Source: Turbatrix aceti
Taxonomy: Eukaryota; Nematoda; Chromadorea; Rhabditida; Panagrolaimidae
Reading direction: 5' to 3'
Assembly (NCBI GenBank): GCA_963969345.1
Contig: OZ017766.1
Coordinates: 10,478,001 to 10,542,000 of the forward strand
DNA length: 64,000 nucleotides
Part shown: positions 51,498 through 64,000 of the stretch, one piece after another
Layout: each line of letters begins with the position of its first letter
Numbering within the stretch: position 1 is the first letter of the stretch
Notes under the pieces: model-generated
What the model saw: the letters and a program-made list of their open reading frames with translations, nothing else
What the model was told of the DNA's origin: nothing
Database searches by the model: none
Translations under genes and position numbers: made by a program

Positions 51498-54060
51498 ATC
51501 TCAAAAAAAATCATTAGTAATTTTAAACGATTTTGAACAGTTTAGGGGTACACAAGAAACGGTAACGCAAAAAATTATCGAACTAACACAAATTTACATA
51601 TAACAAAAATTCTAAAAATTATTTTTGGTTTTGAAAATCTGTTTAAAAAAAGTAATAAATTTATGATAAAACATGTAAAAAAATAAAAAATTATGCTAAA
51701 CACAACTTGTTTAAAAAATTGTATCTTTTTGAAGTTTTTTACACTTTAATTGCTAAAAAAAGTCGAGTAAATGAAAAATGAAAACTGAATTTTTTTAGCT
51801 GTTTTTGGTTGTTTTTCCGGTTTTTTATTCCAAAAATATCCCTTTTTATGAAAAAATTTGTTACAAATTTTTGAACTCCAAAAGCAAAAAAAGGGATAAA
51901 AAATAGAACCCACAAAATTGTACTAGTATTTGCACGGACCAAAAAAAATCCGATCACCACAAATATTCAAAAATTGCTGGTTCTAACACAAAAAATTTCA
52001 AAATGTTAATTAGAATTTTTAAATTAAAAAACACTGGAAGTAAGAAAAGAAGTCACGCCGTCAAAAAATAAATTGTTTAATTAAAACAACCACGTTGTGT
52101 TACGTCTCTCTTCTCGATCAGACACCTGTGTGCTCACCGTCAAAAAAAGTATTATTCATTGTTTTCCCATCCTATCCTACAATTTGCAAAAACAAACTTG
52201 GAACTCCAAAACCTGTTCCGTTTCCTTCCTACAAGGTACAAATACACATATGTACATACACAAGCAACAAAAACAATCTTTCAAAGTCCACGCTCCTTTA
52301 AAAAAATTATACCTACATATTTAAAACAAGATAGCGTCAACGCAAAATGTGTTAGACACTCTGGAAGACGTCGCGGGTCTGAGGGGAAAGGACAAAGTCC
52401 AAATCGTGTCAGACCATTTTCCTTACCCTGCTTGGCCATGAGGTACAAAAAGTGTGCACAGGTGTGATTCAAAATGTAGATAAAATTTTATTTTATAACA
52501 TAAATTTAACCTTCAAACTGATGAGTTTGTGTGCGCGACAACAATTATTTATCCTCCCCCCTATTTGGTAATTATAGTGCAACGCTAAACACCATGCATG
52601 TGTTTTGCATTTTTTTGCACGTGCCATTTTACGCTCATAACTAGTAAATAGATAAATAACTAATTTCTTTGTTTCCTGTTTGTTTCAGCACAATTATAAT
52701 TTTATAGGGAGACGAAAGGCTTGCAACTTCTAGTTTTTTGATCGTAATTTCGTTTTACGATGGAAATCAAAAAACAAAGATTGATTGGCCAAAAAAAATA
52801 AAGATACGTGCAAAAATAATACAGAAAATTGTTATCCGAAAAAAACAATTACGGAAAAAATGAAGCGCTTGTCGGAAAAAGTATTTTTATTTTTATACAT
52901 ACACTATAAATTTGTTAAAAACGTCTGGAAAACAAAAATTACAGTTCAAAATTTATTTAAAAAATAAAAACAAAGTTAACGGATAAAATTGTTCAAAAAA
53001 CTGCAAAAACCTTTTACAAAAACTAAAACGGACGGCAAAATCAAGTCCAGCCCAAACAAAATTTTTAAAATTTACAAAGTATGAACACAAATGTTCCACA
53101 ATTTTTTTCACAATCCATGAAAACAAAATTCCAATCGCAAAAAAAATCTAAAAATGAATGCAGTTTTAAACACATAAAAAACTTTTATTAAATACAAAAT
53201 AACAAACTATTCGCTGAACTGACTCAACGAACACATGAGCAAGTTCTTGAGACATTTCATGCATCGTGAGTTACATATGAGAGGCACTGGCCGACCGACC
53301 TAACCCCTCACCTCACTGCGACTGTTCCGTCTTGCCTCCATGAGTACTACGCCTATTGTCACACAGCCCAGCAGCCCCGCGTTACACGGCAGTCGACACC
53401 GATCGACGTAGACGCCGCCGACGCCGACACGAGATGCATATCTTAGGAGATTTGACATACATTAGGATCACGCTATAGATAATGGAGTCTCCAAAAAAAG
53501 TTAGTATGAACGTTACAAACTTTCCCGAGGTAAATATTCTTTTGTCGGTGACAATTTTTTCCTACGTTTTTGAACATTTTTGAGCAAACAAAAAATACAA
53601 AATTTTTAGTTTTTACATGCAAAAAAACAAAATGTAAGAAATACAAAAAAAATTTGAGAAAAATTTATTTACAAATAATATCAGGAAAAATGTTGTACTA
53701 AAATTTGGTTTACATTTATTTATATCTGACTTTGAGGGAGGCTCAAATAAATAAACGCGCATGACCTCGGATGAATGCATGAGTGATGACCTCAAAGCCG
53801 TTCGTTGGTAGATTGTATGTATGAACAGAATAGAGGAAAGGGGCACTTAACGCCAGATTACGCGAGGTTGTGGGGTCGAGGATTCGTTGCATGAATTCGT
53901 TGCGTCAAACGATAGGGCGGCGTGTCAGAGACTACACGTCAAATCCAAGCATTTTGACAAAAATTAAAAAGTATTAACGTTTGAAACGCTGGATTATGAG
54001 AAGTTTAGAAAACAATGGAGTGTACAAAATGCTGGGTAATTACTGGAAAAGTTGTGGGAC
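51498..54060. other. Intergenic region left of the transposon block
   Basis: No gene recognised. The first part is A/T-rich; a less A/T-rich patch lies at 53280-53450 with GACGCCG words. It ends at the CAGTG terminus of the hAT element. Confidence 0.5.
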
Positions 54061-54070
54061 CAGTGCTGTC

Positions 54071-54155
54071 GGGTACCCGACCCGAACTCGGACCCTACCC
54101 GAAATACCCGAAATTTCGGGTCGGGTACCCGAAAATTTCGGGTTCGGGTTGCAAA
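54071..54155. repeat. GGGTACCCGA-word subterminal repeats of the hAT element
   Basis: Self-complementary words (GGGTACCCGA, ACCCGAAA, TTTCGGGT) recur about eight times in 85 bases. They resemble the transposase-binding subterminal repeats of hAT elements. Confidence 0.65.
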
Positions 54156-54263
54156 AAACAACAAAAAATCCAATGAAAGATAAGCTCCTCACGCAAGACA
54201 AGCTATTTGGTGCGTTTCAGCGCAAAGAATTTTGCGAAGATTTTGGGGGAACGTTGTCCTACA

Positions 54264-54600
54264 ATGTCTCTTGTCACTTGGCTTCCGAAAGACGATTTGT
54301 TGGATTTTTTTACGAATGTCGACGGTAAGTGGAAATGTACATGTTCGCACTACCAAGCTTACCGTCAGCAGCGATGGCAGTACAAGCTCTCGTCGCAAAC
54401 ATCTGGCTGCCCATCGAACGAAAGAAACCGATGAAGCGCGCGTTCTGTTTCTCCAGCCGCGAAAGATCGGTTACGGCTGTGCGCACGCTTTCGACTCTCG
54501 GAGCGAAAGTCTAGGAAACTTCGCTGCTTGCCTCTTGGTCGCCCTACTTTTTGGTTGTGTCCTCATATTTGTCTCCCATTTTGCCCCCATGATTCTTTGA
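54264..54600 (+). pseudogene. hAT transposase, BED zinc-finger exon with a frameshift
   Basis: From the ATG at 54264 the frame reads DDLLDFFTNVDGKWKCTC, the start of a BED finger (aromatic pair, then the first cysteines). From about 54340 the match continues in another frame as TKLTVSSDGSTSSRRKHLAAH, giving the GSTS and the H...H of the finger. One base must have been gained or two lost between them. The second frame ends at 54600. BED fingers bind DNA in hAT transposases. Confidence 0.6.
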
Positions 54601-54674
54601 TTATTTATTTGTCGCGTAACGCGCTATTGAATTACCAATAGGTTTAATTACCCAAGTTTGAAGCTTCGGATAAA

Positions 54675-54679
54675 CTCTC
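54675..54679. repeat. Left target-site duplication of the gypsy element (CTCTC)
   Basis: CTCTC directly precedes the LTR at 54680; the same five bases follow the other LTR at 60202-60206. Confidence 0.85.
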
Positions 54680-55259
54680 TGGCACCGAGCTCGATGGATG
54701 CCACGCTATGCGGGGGAGGAGGTGGTAGGCCGCAAGAGTCGTCCGGAGTACCTTTATTCAACAGATCAAGGAACTTCCTCAGAGGAGGAAGTTCGAACGG
54801 TGCCGGAATCAATACAAGACAATTAAACAAATCAATCACACTGATACGCAGGGGGACACAGCGTCCTTCGAGTCGAGTCGCCGATTTCTCGCAGGGCTTG
54901 GGGACGAGGGGAGTAGAGAAGAGGCGAGTCGACCTGTCTGCTTCGTTCAGTCGCGGGAGGAATGATCAGGGTGGTGGCGGCGACCAGCTCGGTCGCGCCA
55001 GGCGAAACGGCGGCCGTCCTTGTTCCCCGGCCAGGGGTAGTTGCGCTGCTCTCCGGGCTCAGCCAAGTGGACTCGGGCCATAGACTCCCAGAGGTCCTCC
55101 TCATCGGACGGGAGGGCGCGTCGTCGCTTGGCAAGATGAGGCGAGTCCGGACGCACGGAGACGAGCACGCGAGGATCGCTTGAGTCCACCTCAACAGAGG
55201 GGGCTCTGATGCGGGGGCGCTTGACCGGGCGGGAGACTACCTTGACCGCCCCGGTGTCA
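54680..55259 (-). repeat. 3' LTR of the gypsy element
   Basis: 580 bp, TGACACC...GGTGCCA on the minus strand, with AATAAA at 54758-54753. Its first 313 bases also encode the end of the gag-pol protein. Confidence 0.92.
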
Positions 55260-58200
55260 ATCCTTCCCCCAGCTGACGACTGCCGAAGGCGGGACCGGTG
55301 CTGAAGAGTTGCACTGAAGCGACCATGAAGCAGCGTCAGCTCTTTGAATCCATTCACCGCTTCCTGAGCCTCATCCGCCAGATTGCTGATTCCCGGTCCA
55401 TAAAAACGGGTGCTGGCGCGGAGCGCGTGGCGAACATCGGCAATGTCGTGGTACAAGTCAGCCAGCTTCCGGTCCATTTCGAGGGTAAGCTCCCGCTGTC
55501 GTTTCTTGATGCGGGCACTTTCGCGGTTCAGTGCTGGGGTATCCATGTCCTCGATGTCAACTGGCACGCGGACTTCCTTGAACACTCGGATCGCGACGCT
55601 GCGAGGTTGAGGCCGCGGTGGGGATTCACCGCCAGCAAGCATGTTGACTTCTGAAACCGACTCGTCGTGAATTTTTTGGATCGGGATGGTTTCTGCTCCT
55701 CTGATCTGGTCACGGTGTCTCACATGAGTCACCCCTTTCACTTCAACGCGGTAAATTACGTTTCCCACTTTTCGGACAACCGTCCCTTTTTCCCACCACA
55801 CATGACCGGGCTTCACCATTTGTGTCCAAACCATCTGGCCCGGGTCGAATTCCTTGCCGCATACCGCATTGATAGTAAAAATTGTTCGTAGGTCCCTTCC
55901 GTAAACCTTTCTCGCCGGTGTGTCTTCCCCATCTTTGAGCTTAGTGACGCGGTGTAGATACAATGATGTGAGCACCGCTTCCTCCAGGCTGTCGCCATTG
56001 TTGAGTCTCTTCGTGACCCCTTCTTTGAACGTACGAACGGCTCTCTCCGCTGGACCATTTGAGCTGGGATGATATGGCGGTGATTTGAGATGCTTGATGC
56101 TGCGGGCCAGGCAGAATGCCTCGAATTCTCGGCTTGTAAATCCAGTACCGTTGTCCGATACCAGTACCTTTGGTAATCCATGACGGCTTATGACCTGCCT
56201 CAGGGCTGCTATTGTGTCTTTCGTTGACGTGGACTTCGTTTTCACGACTTCAATCCAGTTGGACCAGACGTCGACCAGCACGAACCAAAAGTGGTGATGA
56301 AAAGGTCCTGCGTAGTCCACATGGACTCTTTCGAAAAACCCTTCCGATGGCTTCCAGGCCGTCAATGCCGCCGCCGGGTTTTTCTTGTTCTTGTTGCACG
56401 CTTCACACCCTTTGGCAATGTCCTCGATATCCTTGGCCAGTCCCGGGTACCAGAATTGGTCTCTCGCTATCATCAGCATTTGGTCACGTCCCACATGGGC
56501 GTCGTGGAGAAGTTTCAGGGCCTCTGCTTTCAGGCTCTGCGGGATGACCAAGCGGTTATCCATCCAAAGACATTGCCCATCGCTCCATAACTTGTCTTTG
56601 AACTGCCGGAACGGTAGTAGCGCTTCGTCATAGTGTTCCTTGTCCGGCCAACTGGTCAGTGTCTGCTGTGCTACCAGCCGCAGGGTGTCGTCTTTCTGGG
56701 TTTCTTCAGCTATTCTTGAGATGTCAAACGGGGACTTCAGTATCTGATCGGCCACCTCATTCACTGACTCCAGCATGAACTCCTCAATCCTTGTGGGCAG
56801 CGTTCCCTCTGGATTCGGGAGCCTGGACAGTCCATCCGCGTTGCCGAACTGCTTCGTGTTGCAATACTGCAGATCAAATTCGTATTCCAGTAGTATGAGG
56901 GCCCATCTTGTCAGTCGTTTCGTAGCCACGGTTCCCAAGCCCACCTTAGGCCCGAAGATGCCCAGCAGCGGCTGATGATCGGTTATCAACGTGAACCTGT
57001 GGCAAAGCAGAAATTCTCGAAATTTCTCGACCGAAAATACGATCGCTAGGGCCTCTTTCTCGATTTGTGGGTAGTTGAGTTCTGCCGCTTTCAGTCGACG
57101 CGAGGCAAATGCTATCGGTCGTTCCGTGCCCTCCGTTTCTTTGTGGTAGATCACTGCACCTACTCCATATGGACTTGCATCTGCTGCCACAAACAGTTCT
57201 TTGCCCGGATCGAAGTGGGCCAACGATTTCTCTGAGGTCAGCTCGTTCCGTATCTCCGCAAACGCCCGTTCATGAGCCTCCTCCCACTGCCATTCTTTCT
57301 TTCCTCTCAAGCCTTGCAGTGGATTCAGCTTCGTTGCCAAACTTGGCACGAATCTCGCGTAGTAATTCGATAGGCCAACAAACGCTTCCAATTCTTTCTG
57401 ATTTGTCGGGGGTGGCATCTGCTTCATGTCCTCGCATCTGGATGGGGAAATTTGCACACCCTTCTCACTTATCCGATATCCGAGGAATGTCGCTTCTTTT
57501 CCCAGGAATTGACATTTCTCCGCCTTCAGTCGAAGACCATTTTCCTGCAGTCGGCCCAACACCGCTCTCAAAGCCTTGTTGTGATCTGCTACCGACGTTC
57601 CCATGACCACAATGTCGTCGACGTATACCATGACTCCGGGAATGCCGCTCAAGATCTTTTCCATGGTCCCTTGGAAGATTGCCGTGGCTGACGTGATCCC
57701 AAACGGGAGCTTGGTGTACTGGAAGAGGCCTTTGTGCGTGTTAATCGTCACCAGCGATTGTGACGCAGCGTCCAAGGGGAGCTGGTGGTACGCATCTCGG
57801 AGGTCCAGTTTGGAGAAGATCTTTTTTCCTGTGCATTCCGTCAAAAGCTCCGTGACAGTGGGAAGAGGGTACACTTCCTCGTCGAGAATCCGATTCAGTG
57901 TTATCTTGAAATCCCCGCAAATGCGGTACTTGTCTGGCGATTTCTTGACCGCTACAATTGGCGTGGCCCAGTCCGACGATTTGACTGGTCGGAGGATTCC
58001 TTCTTCGACCTTTTTCTGGATGTCTCCTTCGATTTTTTCTTTGATGGCGTGGGGAACTTTCCTGGCACGGAAAAATTTTGGTCTGGCGCCCTCTTTGACG
58101 TGCAACGTGACTTCGATCTGACAGCTGGCCGGTGTGTCAGAGAACACCTCCTGGTGATCTTCCAGTAAGCTTGCCAACTCGTTGTCTCCACTTTCTTCAA

Positions 58201-59509
58201 TTTCATTGATGGTGTCCTCAGTTGGCCCTGTTGCCCGGGGGCGCTGGATCTTGAATTCCTCCATCATGTCTCTTCCCAACAGATTTGTGATGCCGATTTG
58301 CGCGACTACTATCGGTACCACTTTCCTGATTCCGCCGTGCTCCACCTCTGCGCGGATTTCTCCAAGGATCTCGATGAATGATCCTTCAAAATTCCTTAGG
58401 GATCTTCCTGACTTCCACACCTGTGGTCGCCCGAGGTTCTCCCATGTTGCCTTCGTGATGATGGTGCAGACTGCTCCGGAGTCGTACATCATCCTGATGA
58501 GCTGCCCATTTACCTTGACGCGAATCATGTAGGGTGGGATGTCCTCGATGGCTCCGATGATGGCCAAGACCGAGTTGATCGCGTTGCTGGTCTTCTGAGT
58601 TTGGGCTGGCTTCCTGCAGTTCCTTGCAATGTGTCCCGGTATGCCACAGTTGTAGCATGTGCGTTTTTCCTCCGCCCTGTTGTCTGTCGTGCTTTGCGAG
58701 TTTCTAAATCTCTTCTGACGGTCCGCTATCTTGCACACTGCCGCTGAGGTCTCTTCTTTCCCCGAGGTGGGAAACTTGGCACGTTTCATTACTTCTGCCT
58801 TTGCATCATACGTCTTCATTAGCATGAGCAAGTCTTCGACACCATTGATTTCATTCGACGGCAGCATGAGGAATGTACGAAGCTCCTCATCGTCGATGCC
58901 CCTGACAATGGTCAAGATGATGTCCTCTTCTTTGAAATCTCGGGTTTCTGCGTAGTCGCACAGTCTGGATAGTTGGAAGACATCCGCCACAAACTCATTT
59001 CGGGATTCTGTGTTCCCTTGTCGCCTGTCGAGGAGTGCCATTCTGGTAGCCAACCGGCTCCGAGCCTTCTTGAAAATCCGTTCCAGGGTATCCAGGACCT
59101 CCTTGACCTCCAACTGGTGCAAGCGTCGAGGGTGAACTCTGCTGATCATGATGTTCAGTACGTCATCTGTGAGGTTTTCGACTATCAACTGACGTCGTTC
59201 ACCTTGATCTCGGATTCCCAGGTTGTGAATGCAGCTGTCATAACGGAACAGCCACATGTCGAAGTCACTCTCTTTGCCTAACGTCGGCAGTTTTGCGTGT
59301 CGGCGAAAGCTGCTTGCTTGATGCATTGAGCTTGCCGAGCTGCGACTTCCCCTGTCACCTGACTGGGTTTGCTGCCCATCTTCGCCTCGTACTGGATCTG
59401 GATCATCGTTGACGCTGTCTGTGCTTTCTGGCGGGTCTGTCTCCATGAACACCGTGTCGTCGATTGTGGGGTCAGTCGCCGCCGCTTGACTTCTTGTGAT
59501 CATAGGCAT
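54947..59509 (-). CDS. Gypsy gag-pol polyprotein, intact single frame
   Basis: From the ATG at 59509 (MPMITRSQ) the frame gives 1,520 residues without stops; it is open back to 59620 but without another ATG. In order: a gag capsid-like region (residues ~75-260); a CCHC zinc knuckle CYNCGIPGHIARNC at ~285-298; an aspartic protease DSGA at ~343; reverse transcriptase with YVDD at ~629-632; RNase H (ADASPYGVGAV, ~775); an integrase HHCC region (HDAHVGRD...CEAC); and a DD35E core with Asp1065, Asp1119 and Glu1155. A GPY/F-like segment (VEVKGVTHVRHRDQI) follows. The protein then continues about 200 residues past the integrase with a charged coiled coil, and its last ~104 residues are encoded inside the 3' LTR. 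No gag-pol frameshift is needed. It is probably still competent. Confidence 0.92.
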   Translation of the reverse strand: MPMITRSQAAATDPTIDDTVFMETDPPESTDSVNDDPDPVRGEDGQQTQSGDRGSRSSASSMHQASSFRRHAKLPTLGKESDFDMWLFRYDSCIHNLGIRDQGERRQLIVENLTDDVLNIMISRVHPRRLHQLEVKEVLDTLERIFKKARSRLATRMALLDRRQGNTESRNEFVADVFQLSRLCDYAETRDFKEEDIILTIVRGIDDEELRTFLMLPSNEINGVEDLLMLMKTYDAKAEVMKRAKFPTSGKEETSAAVCKIADRQKRFRNSQSTTDNRAEEKRTCYNCGIPGHIARNCRKPAQTQKTSNAINSVLAIIGAIEDIPPYMIRVKVNGQLIRMMYDSGAVCTIITKATWENLGRPQVWKSGRSLRNFEGSFIEILGEIRAEVEHGGIRKVVPIVVAQIGITNLLGRDMMEEFKIQRPRATGPTEDTINEIEESGDNELASLLEDHQEVFSDTPASCQIEVTLHVKEGARPKFFRARKVPHAIKEKIEGDIQKKVEEGILRPVKSSDWATPIVAVKKSPDKYRICGDFKITLNRILDEEVYPLPTVTELLTECTGKKIFSKLDLRDAYHQLPLDAASQSLVTINTHKGLFQYTKLPFGITSATAIFQGTMEKILSGIPGVMVYVDDIVVMGTSVADHNKALRAVLGRLQENGLRLKAEKCQFLGKEATFLGYRISEKGVQISPSRCEDMKQMPPPTNQKELEAFVGLSNYYARFVPSLATKLNPLQGLRGKKEWQWEEAHERAFAEIRNELTSEKSLAHFDPGKELFVAADASPYGVGAVIYHKETEGTERPIAFASRRLKAAELNYPQIEKEALAIVFSVEKFREFLLCHRFTLITDHQPLLGIFGPKVGLGTVATKRLTRWALILLEYEFDLQYCNTKQFGNADGLSRLPNPEGTLPTRIEEFMLESVNEVADQILKSPFDISRIAEETQKDDTLRLVAQQTLTSWPDKEHYDEALLPFRQFKDKLWSDGQCLWMDNRLVIPQSLKAEALKLLHDAHVGRDQMLMIARDQFWYPGLAKDIEDIAKGCEACNKNKKNPAAALTAWKPSEGFFERVHVDYAGPFHHHFWFVLVDVWSNWIEVVKTKSTSTKDTIAALRQVISRHGLPKVLVSDNGTGFTSREFEAFCLARSIKHLKSPPYHPSSNGPAERAVRTFKEGVTKRLNNGDSLEEAVLTSLYLHRVTKLKDGEDTPARKVYGRDLRTIFTINAVCGKEFDPGQMVWTQMVKPGHVWWEKGTVVRKVGNVIYRVEVKGVTHVRHRDQIRGAETIPIQKIHDESVSEVNMLAGGESPPRPQPRSVAIRVFKEVRVPVDIEDMDTPALNRESARIKKRQRELTLEMDRKLADLYHDIADVRHALRASTRFYGPGISNLADEAQEAVNGFKELTLLHGRFSATLQHRSRLRQSSAGGRIDTGAVKVVSRPVKRPRIRAPSVEVDSSDPRVLVSVRPDSPHLAKRRRALPSDEEDLWESMARVHLAEPGEQRNYPWPGNKDGRRFAWRDRAGRRHHPDHSSRD

Positions 59510-59621
59510 GGCTTGATCACCCCCCGCCCACTTTTCAGAAAATAAAGAGCAATTTGTACCAACCTGAATTTGGGTTCTCTTCGATGGCGTGCGTTGCTGT
59601 CGTTTCACTCTCGTCACCAAT

Positions 59622-60201
59622 TGGCACCGAGCTCGATGGATGCCACGCTATGCGGGGGAGGAGGTGGTAGGCCGCAAGAGTCGTCCGGAGTACCTTTATT
59701 CAACAGATCAAGGAACTTCCTCAGAGGAGGAAGTTCGAACGGTGCCGGAATCAATACAAGACAATTAAACAAATCAATCACACTGATACGCAGGGGGACA
59801 CAGCGTCCTTCGAGTCGAGTCGCCGATTTCTCGCAGGGCTTGGGGACGAGGGGAGTAGAGAAGAGGCGAGTCGACCTGTCTGCTTCGTTCAGTCGCGGGA
59901 GGAATGATCAGGGTGGTGGCGGCGACCAGCTCGGTCGCGCCAGGCGAAACGGCGGCCGTCCTTGTTCCCCGGCCAGGGGTAGTTGCGCTGCTCTCCGGGC
60001 TCAGCCAAGTGGACTCGGGCCATAGACTCCCAGAGGTCCTCCTCATCGGACGGGAGGGCGCGTCGTCGCTTGGCAAGATGAGGCGAGTCCGGACGCACGG
60101 AGACGAGCACGCGAGGATCGCTTGAGTCCACCTCAACAGAGGGGGCTCTGATGCGGGGGCGCTTGACCGGGCGGGAGACTACCTTGACCGCCCCGGTGTC
60201 A
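59622..60201 (-). repeat. 5' LTR of the gypsy element
   Basis: 580 bp, matching 54680-55259 throughout, with TG...CA ends. Minus-strand transcription would begin here. Confidence 0.92.
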
Positions 60202-60206
60202 CTCTC
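60202..60206. repeat. Right target-site duplication of the gypsy element (CTCTC)
   Basis: It matches the five bases at 54675-54679. Confidence 0.85.
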
Positions 60207-60769
60207 TTATCACTCGGAGACTCATCTCGGGGTACAAGGTCACTGGGAGCACTACCGAAGGCCAAGTTAGTGTTTCCCATACTTTTTGGTGCATCGGGCC
60301 GAGTGATCCATCCCCTCGGGCACCCCCCACGTGTGGCAGAGCAGGCGACGACACCGTCGACGGTCCAGGACAAGCAGACGAATCCGACGACAACTGTGCC
60401 AGGCCCCGTCCCGGTGAGTTTTTCTGGGTTTTGATTGGGTTGTTTTATCTCTTGGTCCATTGGACAGGCAAATTGGGGCCAAAAAGGGCGTTTTTTTGTG
60501 CGTCGAGTTTTTAGGCCAGCAAGCGCGGGTGTTTTGGTTTTTAGGTAACCGTGGTCTGACGAGACACGGAGTACAGTTGGCGCGAGTTAGGTAGACGCAG
60601 GCATGAGAGCGGCGGCATCAACACGCAGTTGGGTAACAGCGCTTCGCATAGTGCAGGTTACGGTTTTGGTTTTAGGCATCGTGTTCTTGTGAGACGCGAT
60701 TACGGTACGCAAATTCTTGGCTAGCGCATCAGGCGGGGTCAGTTTTCACGTGTTTTTTTTTCAGCCACG
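60207..60769. other. G/C-rich segment between the gypsy element and the hAT core
   Basis: Open on the plus strand up to a good splice donor (GTGAGT at 60414), then intron-like T-rich sequence, with an acceptor (TTTTTTTTCAG) at about 60755-60765. By position it should belong to the hAT element, but I recognise no conserved protein in it. Confidence 0.35.
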
Positions 60770-61024
60770 ATGGTCAACAGGGCGGAGCGCATTGCGCGGT
60801 TGATAGCCCGCATCGCGGAAGTCGAGCGCAGCTTTCAGGAACTTCGCGTGCAGGCAAACGGCGATAATCCATTATCGCCGTCTCAGCTCTACTATCGCGC
60901 GCAGCGCATACGGTATAGAATCACGGAGCTTCAGGAGGCGCTTGACGAACTGGTCGGCAAGATCGAGAAGAACCCAGGGAATGCGATGCTGTCCCAGCGC
61001 ATCATCGCAAGCAGACCAAATTGA
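60770..61024 (+). CDS. 84-residue open frame, unrecognised, coiled-coil-like
   Basis: The ATG follows an acceptor-like T-run and CAG by five bases. The product is rich in Arg, Glu, Leu and Ala with heptad-like spacing (RIARLIARIAEVERSF, YRITELQEALDELV) and ends SRPN. The last part overlaps, in another frame, the sequence that leads into the hAT core (RKQTKLTEFQP), so it may be a shadow, a damaged hAT exon, or part of a gag-like gene. No family is recognised. Confidence 0.3.
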   Translation: MVNRAERIARLIARIAEVERSFQELRVQANGDNPLSPSQLYYRAQRIRYRITELQEALDELVGKIEKNPGNAMLSQRIIASRPN

Positions 61025-61105
61025 CCGAGTTCCAGCCAATTCAAATTGCTTTCGGCAGGTCAGCTCATCTAATGACGTTGGCAACTCAAGGAATCAGTTT
61101 CAAAG

Positions 61106-61111
61106 CCGTGG
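61106..61111. repeat. Target-site duplication of foldback 1 (CCGTGG), left copy
   Basis: CCGTGG is repeated at 61951-61956. Removing the element and one copy rejoins the hAT frame. Confidence 0.8.
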
Positions 61112-61950
61112 CACAGCATTCACTTTCGCGTCAATCGAGCGTGAAAATGCATTCATTCGCGCATATAGTGTTGACTTTGGCAGCTTCGCGCATTGGCATT
61201 TTTAAATTGTTAGTGACGGCATCTGCTATAATGATTAGAGCAAGTCCTGAGCTTTCAAACAAGCCACTGACGGCACGAAAATGTTGATTTTTGGCACAGC
61301 TATAGTGATTTCCAGTTTCGATTTTAAATCGTCGATTGCGGCCGTGTATGGCAATAACTAAACAATCTGGTCAGCAGAAAGTTCCATCAGGTTGGTATCT
61401 GTCGATATAGCTAAGGGCCGTTTGCTGAACATCGAAGGGGACCGAGATTCCTCACATAAACTGTTTTACCCTATAAAAACGATCTGTTTGCTTTTTGTGC
61501 TCATGCAAAATTGGAGAACTTTCTTTTTAGGAGTGCGTGTTTTTGATAATTTGTGCAAATGCGTGCGCATTTTTATAGGGTAAAACAGTTTTTGTGAGGA
61601 ATCTCGGTCCTATTCGATGTTCAGCAAACGGCCCTTGGCTATATCGACTGACACCAACCTGATGGAACTTTCTGTTGACCCGATTGTTCAGTTTTAGCCT
61701 TACACGGCTGCAATCGACTGCTCAAATTTTTTACTTGAAAAGGCTGCAACTATGGCAAAACTGAACATTTTTAGGTCATCGAGGGCTTGTTTGGAAGTTC
61801 AGGACATGTCTTATTCAATACCCTAGATGCCGTCTCTAAGAATTCAAAAATGCCATTGCACGAAGCTGCCAAAGTCAACACTATAAGTGCGAATGAACGC
61901 GCTCATTTTTTTTTCGATTGTCGCAAAATAAGGGGAAAGTGAATGCTGTG
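61112..61950. mobile_element. Foldback/MITE element 1, 839 bp
   Basis: Starts CACAGCATTCACTTTC and ends in its complement. The two arms, each about 370-380 bases, are imperfect inverted copies of each other along their length. For example GGGCCGTTTGCTGAACATCG in the left arm is matched by its inverted copy near 61615-61640, and TATAGGGTAAAACAG by CTGTTTTACCCTATA. A short unpaired centre of about 90 bases separates them. It has no plausible gene. Its termini are shared with the element at 62627-63609. It is flanked by CCGTGG. Confidence 0.82.
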
Positions 61951-62276
61951 CCGTGGGTTCACCTCTATTTGAAGATGTTTTGAAAACATACCATTTACAC
62001 TTCAAAGTGAGTTTGTCTTTTTGAAAAGCGCGTTTAGCAATGCTAATTTTTTTTTAGATGGCAACACGGCACGAAATCAAGGAGAGCGTCATCCTGCTTA
62101 GCCACACCATCAAGGATAACCACAAAAATGCCCTATCGGGTGTCGAGGGCTGCATCGCGTTCGACGAAACCTCCAGTGGGTCCCTGTGACTTTCGAGGTA
62201 ATATTGGATTGGATTTTTATGTTGACAACGATGACGTTGTTTCAGCACTACCGTCTCATGGATCGACGACAATTTT

Positions 62277-62281
62277 GAACT
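62277..62281. repeat. Target-site duplication of the solo LTR (GAACT), left copy
   Basis: GAACT is repeated at 63821-63825 immediately after the LTR terminus. Confidence 0.8.
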
Positions 62282-62620
62282 TGACACCGGGGCGGTCATG
62301 GTCGTCTCGCATAAGAGCCCCCTCTGTTGAGGACGACTCACGCGATCCGCGCTTGCACGTCTCTGTGCGTCCGGACTCGCCTCATCTCGCCAAGCGGCGA
62401 CGCGCTCTCCCTTCTGATGAGGACGACCTCTGGGAGTCGATGGCCCGAGTCCACTTGGCCGAGCCCGGGGAGCAGCGCAACTACCCCTGGCCGGTGAACA
62501 AGGACGGCCGCCGTTTCGCCTGGCGCGACCGAGCTGGTCGCCGCCACCGCGATCATCATTCCGCCCGTGACTGAACGAACGTCGACTCGCGTGTGCGCCT
62601 GCCCTTGTCCCCAAGCTCTA

Positions 62621-62626
62621 CCAGAG
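62621..62626. repeat. Target-site duplication of foldback 2 (CCAGAG), left copy
   Basis: CCAGAG is repeated at 63610-63615. The intact gypsy LTR has a related single sequence (GCGAGA before AATCGG) at the same place. Confidence 0.8.
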
Positions 62627-63609
62627 CACTGCATGCGCCTTTGCCTCAATGGACGAAAAAGAGCGCGCGCGCGCGTCGAATGAATCGTGTTCAAAAAAAG
62701 GCCCTGAAGCCAGTAATAGAGTTTTTTGCTTACGGTCACTTGGGTAGGCTTAGGCATTTCCCAAAGATTGTTTTAAGCCATCGGCGGTCATTGTCGGATT
62801 TTTTTGTGCAATGTTACAGACATTGGAAGAACATGAAATTTCCTGAGACTGTAACTCACCAGAACATCTGTGAATTTTTGAAAATCGAACGTAACTTTTT
62901 TCATTACGTCTATAAGAAGCAAATTACGTGAGATGTGCCGTAGCATTATAGTAGTATGCGAGATCGAACCCAAAATAGAATACGTGCTTCATAATGCGCA
63001 CGCGCCTATTGTCGTATATGAAAAAAACGTTCATTATTGCGTTCCTTCTGCTGGTACTTGCATATCAGAAAGCAAAATGAATATAAAAAATGAAAAAGAA
63101 CCAAAGAAATCAGATGGATAAGAAAAGATACACTCTCTTAGATTCCGACTTTTGGCTAAAATTCATTCGCTGCAGGAACATCGAATAGAGCTTTTTTTCT
63201 GCTTTTCTTCAAAATTCTCCCTTGTTGTTCACCGCGCGTGCGCATTTTTTATCATTTTGCGTTCGATCTCGCATACTACTATAATGCTACGGCACATCTC
63301 ACGTAATTTGCTTCTTATAGACGTAATGAAAAAAGTTACGTTCGATTTTCAAAAATTCACAGATGTTCTGGTGAGTTACAGTCTCAGGAAATTTCATGTT
63401 CTTCCAATGTCTGTAACATTGCACAAAAAAATCCGACAATGACCGCCGATGGCTTATAACAATCTCTGGGACATGCCTAAGCCTACCCAAGTGACCGTAA
63501 GCAAAAAACTCTATTACTGGCTTCAGGGCCTTTTTTTGAACACGACACCTTCAAAAAAATGCACGCGCGCGCTCGATTGAGCAGAAATAAGGCGAAAGCG
63601 CATGCAGTG
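62627..63609. mobile_element. Foldback/MITE element 2, 983 bp
   Basis: Starts CACTGCATGCGCCTTTGCC and ends in the complement of CACTGCATGCGCTTTCGCC, flanked by CCAGAG on both sides. Long inverted arms (about 62688-62985 and 63250-63543) match closely, for example GATGTGCCGTAGCATTATAG and its inverted copy. The centre of about 270 bases contains no gene. It interrupts the solo LTR; deleting it restores the LTR alignment. Confidence 0.85.
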
Positions 63610-64000
63610 CCAGAGATCGGCGACGTGACTCGAAGAACGCTGTGTCCCCTGCTTATTAGTGTGATTCATTGTTTAATTGATTTGTATTGACTCCGGCATC
63701 GCTCGAACTTCCTCCCCTGAGGAAATTCCTTGGCCTGTGGAATAAAGATACCCCCGGACTATTCTCGCGGCCTACTACATCCTTCCCCTGGAAGCTTGGC
63801 ATCTATCGAGCTAGGTGCCAGAACTTCATCATCGTCGGTTGCCGATGAAATCTCTGGCGGGCAACAGTGCCACCGGAGAATTCTCCATCGTCGACGAAGT
63901 TATCGAGGAAGTCGTTGCAATCACTCGCGACGGTGCAAGCAACGGAGCGTTGGCCTGTCGGCTTTTGAATATTCCAAGGTATGTCCTGAAAACTGATTAT

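Follow-up and report, generated by a model that had tools for sequence, protein, structure and literature searches.

A truncated hAT relic carrying nested insertions in the Turbatrix aceti genome

The end of a 64,000-bp stretch of Turbatrix aceti DNA (the window, C1:10478001-10542000, in a 59.9-Mb genome of 28 contigs) carries hAT-like pieces separated by other repeats, which raises the question of whether these pieces belong to one element and what has come to lie between them. We are highly confident that the locus, read as a whole, is a dead hAT element that lacks its right part and carries later nested insertions. The sequence-only reading had described four such insertions. We counted five, because the target of the gypsy element proved to be the LTR of another retroelement, a BEL/Pao-like fragment (54436-54679 plus 60202-60981) that had been overlooked. 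The four exact target duplications listed earlier were all found, CTCTC at the gypsy element, CCGTGG at foldback 1, GAACT at the solo LTR, and CCAGAG at foldback 2. No duplication was seen around the fifth insertion, the BEL/Pao-like fragment, and its 3' part was absent too.

We directly observed the insertion boundaries and duplications, the empty site of the gypsy element, and the order in which the hAT pieces stand. The locus is an ordinary transposon graveyard in which the nesting is real and the main steps are legible; the nested cluster is well preserved and is a clean case of stratigraphy. No tRNA was found in the window, and an Rfam search over 53000-64000 gave no match. Among literature titles and abstract openings, no publication on the locus or on either foldback family was recognised. 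The features are as follows.

54061..54435, plus strand: hAT left end, with terminus CAGTGCTGTCGGGTACCCGA, subterminal repeats of the GGGTACCCGA type, and after them a BED region split between two frames
54436..54679, plus strand: first part of LTR-B, the BEL/Pao-like LTR, its initial ~21 bp missing or unrecognisable; 90-93% to 12 aligned places
54680..60201, minus strand: gypsy-type element, LTRs at 54680-55259 and 59622-60201, CTCTC at 54675-54679 and 60202-60206
60202..60981, plus strand: rest of LTR-B (to 60281) and 700 bp of 5' internal region, cut off at ~60981; over 780 bp, 86-87% to 13 places elsewhere
61003..61111, plus strand: hAT piece B (HRKQTKLTEF...ISFKAV), its final six bases being the first CCGTGG; 60982-61002, just before it, left unassigned
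61112..61950, no strand: foldback 1, 839 bp, between CCGTGG copies, one imperfect inverted repeat from end to end
61951..62281, plus strand: hAT piece C, ending in GAACT, with a TGA at 62187 and two apparent introns
62282..63820, plus strand: solo LTR, related to the gypsy LTR, with foldback 2 inside, between two GAACT copies (the second at 63821-63825)
62627..63609, no strand: foldback 2, 983 bp, with ~350-bp arms, between CCAGAG copies
63821..64000, plus strand: hAT piece D, continuing to ~64077 (L009:577), where similarity is lost

The hAT relic and its relatives

The CAGTG terminus starts at 54061, directly after TGTGGGAC. When the five window hAT pieces were searched singly against Pfam, none matched a hAT profile, and the sole match was a weak one to SWIM (E 0.071), under its cut-off. 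No Pfam BED match was obtained for the window pieces, in which the BED region is frameshifted, or for L057, a relative elsewhere in the genome. The pieces were identified as hAT through elements of the same genome that combine a hATC domain with 8-bp duplications and CAGTG...CACTG ends, along which they align in a single order.

Three of these relatives, L057, L058, and L060, had CAGTG...CACTG ends with exact 8-bp duplications and a hATC match above the cut-off; the window copy ends before that region. L057 and L058 were 99.7% alike over 3.5 kb. Six short copies of 417-488 bp (L036-L041) carried parts of the first ~155 bp of the hAT relic and its ends, and five of the six had exact 8-bp duplications; with L039 as the exception, such duplications were present in 8 of 9 relatives whose ends are of this type. 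The relatives share with the hAT superfamily their ends, duplications, core order and hATC domain, whereas the window copy differs in being truncated, frameshifted, stopped and interrupted. A search for proteins matching 260 aa of joined L057 exons returned none at E<=0.001 among 412 candidates.

The window pieces were then compared with L057 and L060 at the protein level. The BED-finger pattern, C-x4-C and H-x3-H, was visible by eye in both relatives. The two halves of the window BED region aligned to them in different frames, with the frameshift near 54333-54350: identity was 10/24 to L057 and 8/27 to L060 for the first half, and 14/30 and 17/30 for the second, whose last five residues the aligner placed elsewhere. 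Piece C matched at 46/73 and 36/69, and piece D at 42/67 and 35/60. Piece B was short and weak (10/34 and 5/34) and directly precedes piece C on L057. DNA comparison found no second copy of the hAT core pieces, so contiguity was judged from proteins about 60% alike.

The claim that the hAT-like pieces stand in order on one strand was borne out, since the plus-strand order is that of the genomic relatives. Because the pieces are collinear on these relatives, the relatives run unbroken across the positions of foldback 1 and the solo LTR, in the first case by way of the weak piece B. The further claim, that excision would restore an open hAT frame, held in part: the hAT sequences on either side of these two insertions do adjoin in the relatives, the piece before foldback 1 being short and weak, but the frame is broken by the BED frameshift and by the in-frame TGA at 62187 in the core. 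These two lesions mean that the hAT gene is dead.

The right end of the element was sought in 20 kb, C1:10541501-10561500 (L009 plus L042; the first 500 bp lie within the window). The hAT similarity ends inside the core at ~L009:577, about 77 bp past the window, and blastn of the three longer relatives gave no match after that point in L009 or L042. Neither the right-end patterns nor TGTGGGAC was matched exactly in this region, so the matching terminus and 8-bp duplication expected on rightward extension did not appear there in exact form. TGTGGGAC with one mismatch occurred at three places, none beside a pattern-recognised terminus. The right end and the element's own duplication were not found because the element is truncated.

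Just beyond the lost similarity a minus-strand gene has its stop codon (L009:655-657), and a neighbouring exon of that frame was Fringe-like (28.3 bits vs a cut-off of 21). A deletion beside this Fringe-like gene may have removed the right half of the hAT element. The region L009:655-9566 (C1:10542155-10551066) appears to hold a cluster of several related minus-strand genes, and a Fringe-like match was obtained in two of the three frames scanned from it.

The gypsy element and its host

The gypsy-type element is intact in structure. Its two 580-bp LTRs have zero differences, and its gag-pol frame (54947-59647) is unbroken over 1566 aa; scanned as three pieces, the frame gave Pfam matches to a PNMA-like gag, CCHC, protease, RT, RNase H, and integrase. 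Two further places carry a pair of LTRs 97% like those of the window element, again spaced 4942 bp apart. In domain order (gag-protease-RT-RNase H-integrase), identical LTRs and a 5-bp duplication, within the 4-6 bp of the group, the element agrees with Ty3/gypsy, and nothing unusual was seen in it.

The sequence-only reading had placed this insertion in the hAT element itself, and the order of pieces in the window alone fits that account. However, at other copies the sequences that flank the gypsy element here run together as an uninterrupted LTR. Wherever else 60202-60981 is matched over 780 bp, in 13 places, a match to 54436-54679 lies alongside, so the CTCTC target belongs to the BEL/Pao-like LTR, which is continuous and gypsy-free at 13/13 comparable places. 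In 12 of the 13, which were aligned, about six bases are shared by both halves, so that the target is present once, and in 7 of these 12, read letter by letter, a single CTCTC was found. Direct insertion of the gypsy element into the hAT is thereby refuted, and we give it practically no chance.

The host LTR was characterised from its other copies. These have 350-bp TGT...ACA LTRs, with matching 5-bp flanks in all four pairs printed, and copy L029 contains a DUF1759 gag (35.1 bits vs a cut-off of 25.4), which we take to link its family to BEL/Pao. The gag, the LTR length and the 5-bp flanks in these copies agree with BEL/Pao, whereas the window holds a 5' fragment only, which stops before the DUF1759 region. 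A BEL/Pao-like retroelement would have entered the hAT coding region, where today only its 5' fragment is left.

Two other accounts of this junction were weighed. The first is that the locus joins two separate hAT relics by rearrangement, the terminus and BED region coming from one and the core from another. Only the terminus/core junction lacks a duplication, the BEL/Pao-like fragment there is cut at both ends, and piece B beside it is weak, as such a joining would have it. However, on the scale of L057 the two parts are within a few codons of being continuous, which chance joining would hardly produce, and we consider this account very improbable.

The second is that the fragment was never inserted by an integrase and was instead copied in as filler DNA where the hAT had been broken. 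The fragment has no duplication and has lost both ends, yet the hAT coding sequence around it is nearly complete, and 12 bases at its right junction (60987-60998) are found again in other copies, upstream of their 3' LTR, possibly by chance. The same picture would result from a later deletion inside a normal insertion, and since local alignment of this junction with the copies gave scores of 30 to 42, against up to 41 for shuffles, the junction similarity may be fortuitous. Filler DNA has a modest chance of being right, and a retroelement insertion later reduced to its 5' fragment is the reading that we prefer.

The foldback elements and the solo LTR

Foldback 1 is an inverted repeat over its full 839 bp at 74% identity, and the ~350-bp arms of foldback 2 are 92% identical. 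For foldback 1, scoring covered 40 of 101 candidate places, the window's own among them, and every one of the 40 matched at 95% or more; the window copy was 98-99% like its nearest copy. Exact 6-bp duplications were present at all 14 loci read, the window's own among them; two of these loci have identical flanks and so may represent one event. For foldback 2, an internal 34-mer had 40 exact sites, and 38 of the 40 candidates scored (of 305), again including the window's own, matched over 974-985 bp at 99-100%; the other two were interrupted. Both families, with their 6-bp duplications and the 40 sites of one of them, look recently amplified.

The longest open frame wholly inside the foldbacks was at most 106 aa. 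A longer partner of foldback 2 was sought by its 20-base terminus with one mismatch allowed, which gave at least 100 sites, and none was seen among the exact matches listed. Among the 78 exact terminus matches listed, one was a lone end with 367 bp of a foldback 2 copy (L075), and the others lay at the ends of scored copies. This 367-bp end (in L075:1-3200) is near an unrelated 1.25-kb near-palindrome. A further repeat, with the foldback 2 terminus bearing one mismatch (CACTGCATGCGCCTTCCCCT), accounted for 21 of the 100 matches listed (e.g., C1:937711).

Both foldbacks were probably moved by a cut-and-paste transposase supplied from elsewhere, and foldback 1 would have interrupted the hAT coding region in this way. 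A bolder version, that a still-active transposase of an undescribed superfamily moved both families, would draw on their CAC(A/T)GCAT termini, 6-bp duplications, near-identical copies and the 40 sites of one family; we regard it as improbable. In the Tm1 foldback elements of root-knot nematodes, as reported in PMC3169594, some members have a putative transposase and some do not, and the duplications are 8-10 bp. The window foldbacks resemble Tm1 in their long inverted arms and transposase-less members, but differ in their 6-bp duplications, CAC(A/T)GCAT termini and the lack of any transposase-bearing member among those found.

Compared piece by piece, the solo LTR was 83-93% like that of the gypsy element. 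Its parent LTR element probably interrupted the hAT coding region, and LTR-LTR recombination would then have left the solo LTR. Integrase presumably placed both this element and the gypsy.

Order of events

The hAT element arrived first, the BEL/Pao-like fragment must be older than the gypsy element, and the LTR element is older than foldback 2. The gypsy struck the BEL/Pao-like fragment later, and foldback 2 likewise struck the solo LTR or its parent. The gypsy and foldback 2 look the youngest: the gypsy because its LTRs are identical, and foldback 2, which looks about as recent, because it is 99-100% like its other copies. Of the order proposed by the sequence-only reading, the hAT coming first, foldback 2 following the LTR element and the gypsy being recent all stand, but foldback 2 looks about as young as the gypsy, and nesting neither ranks the arrivals of foldback 1, the LTR element and the BEL/Pao-like fragment nor dates the truncation.

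The seeming host of the gypsy element is itself a hidden insertion, visible only through other copies in the genome, and a lone window therefore misleads. The apparent recent burst of the foldback families is the part worth following.
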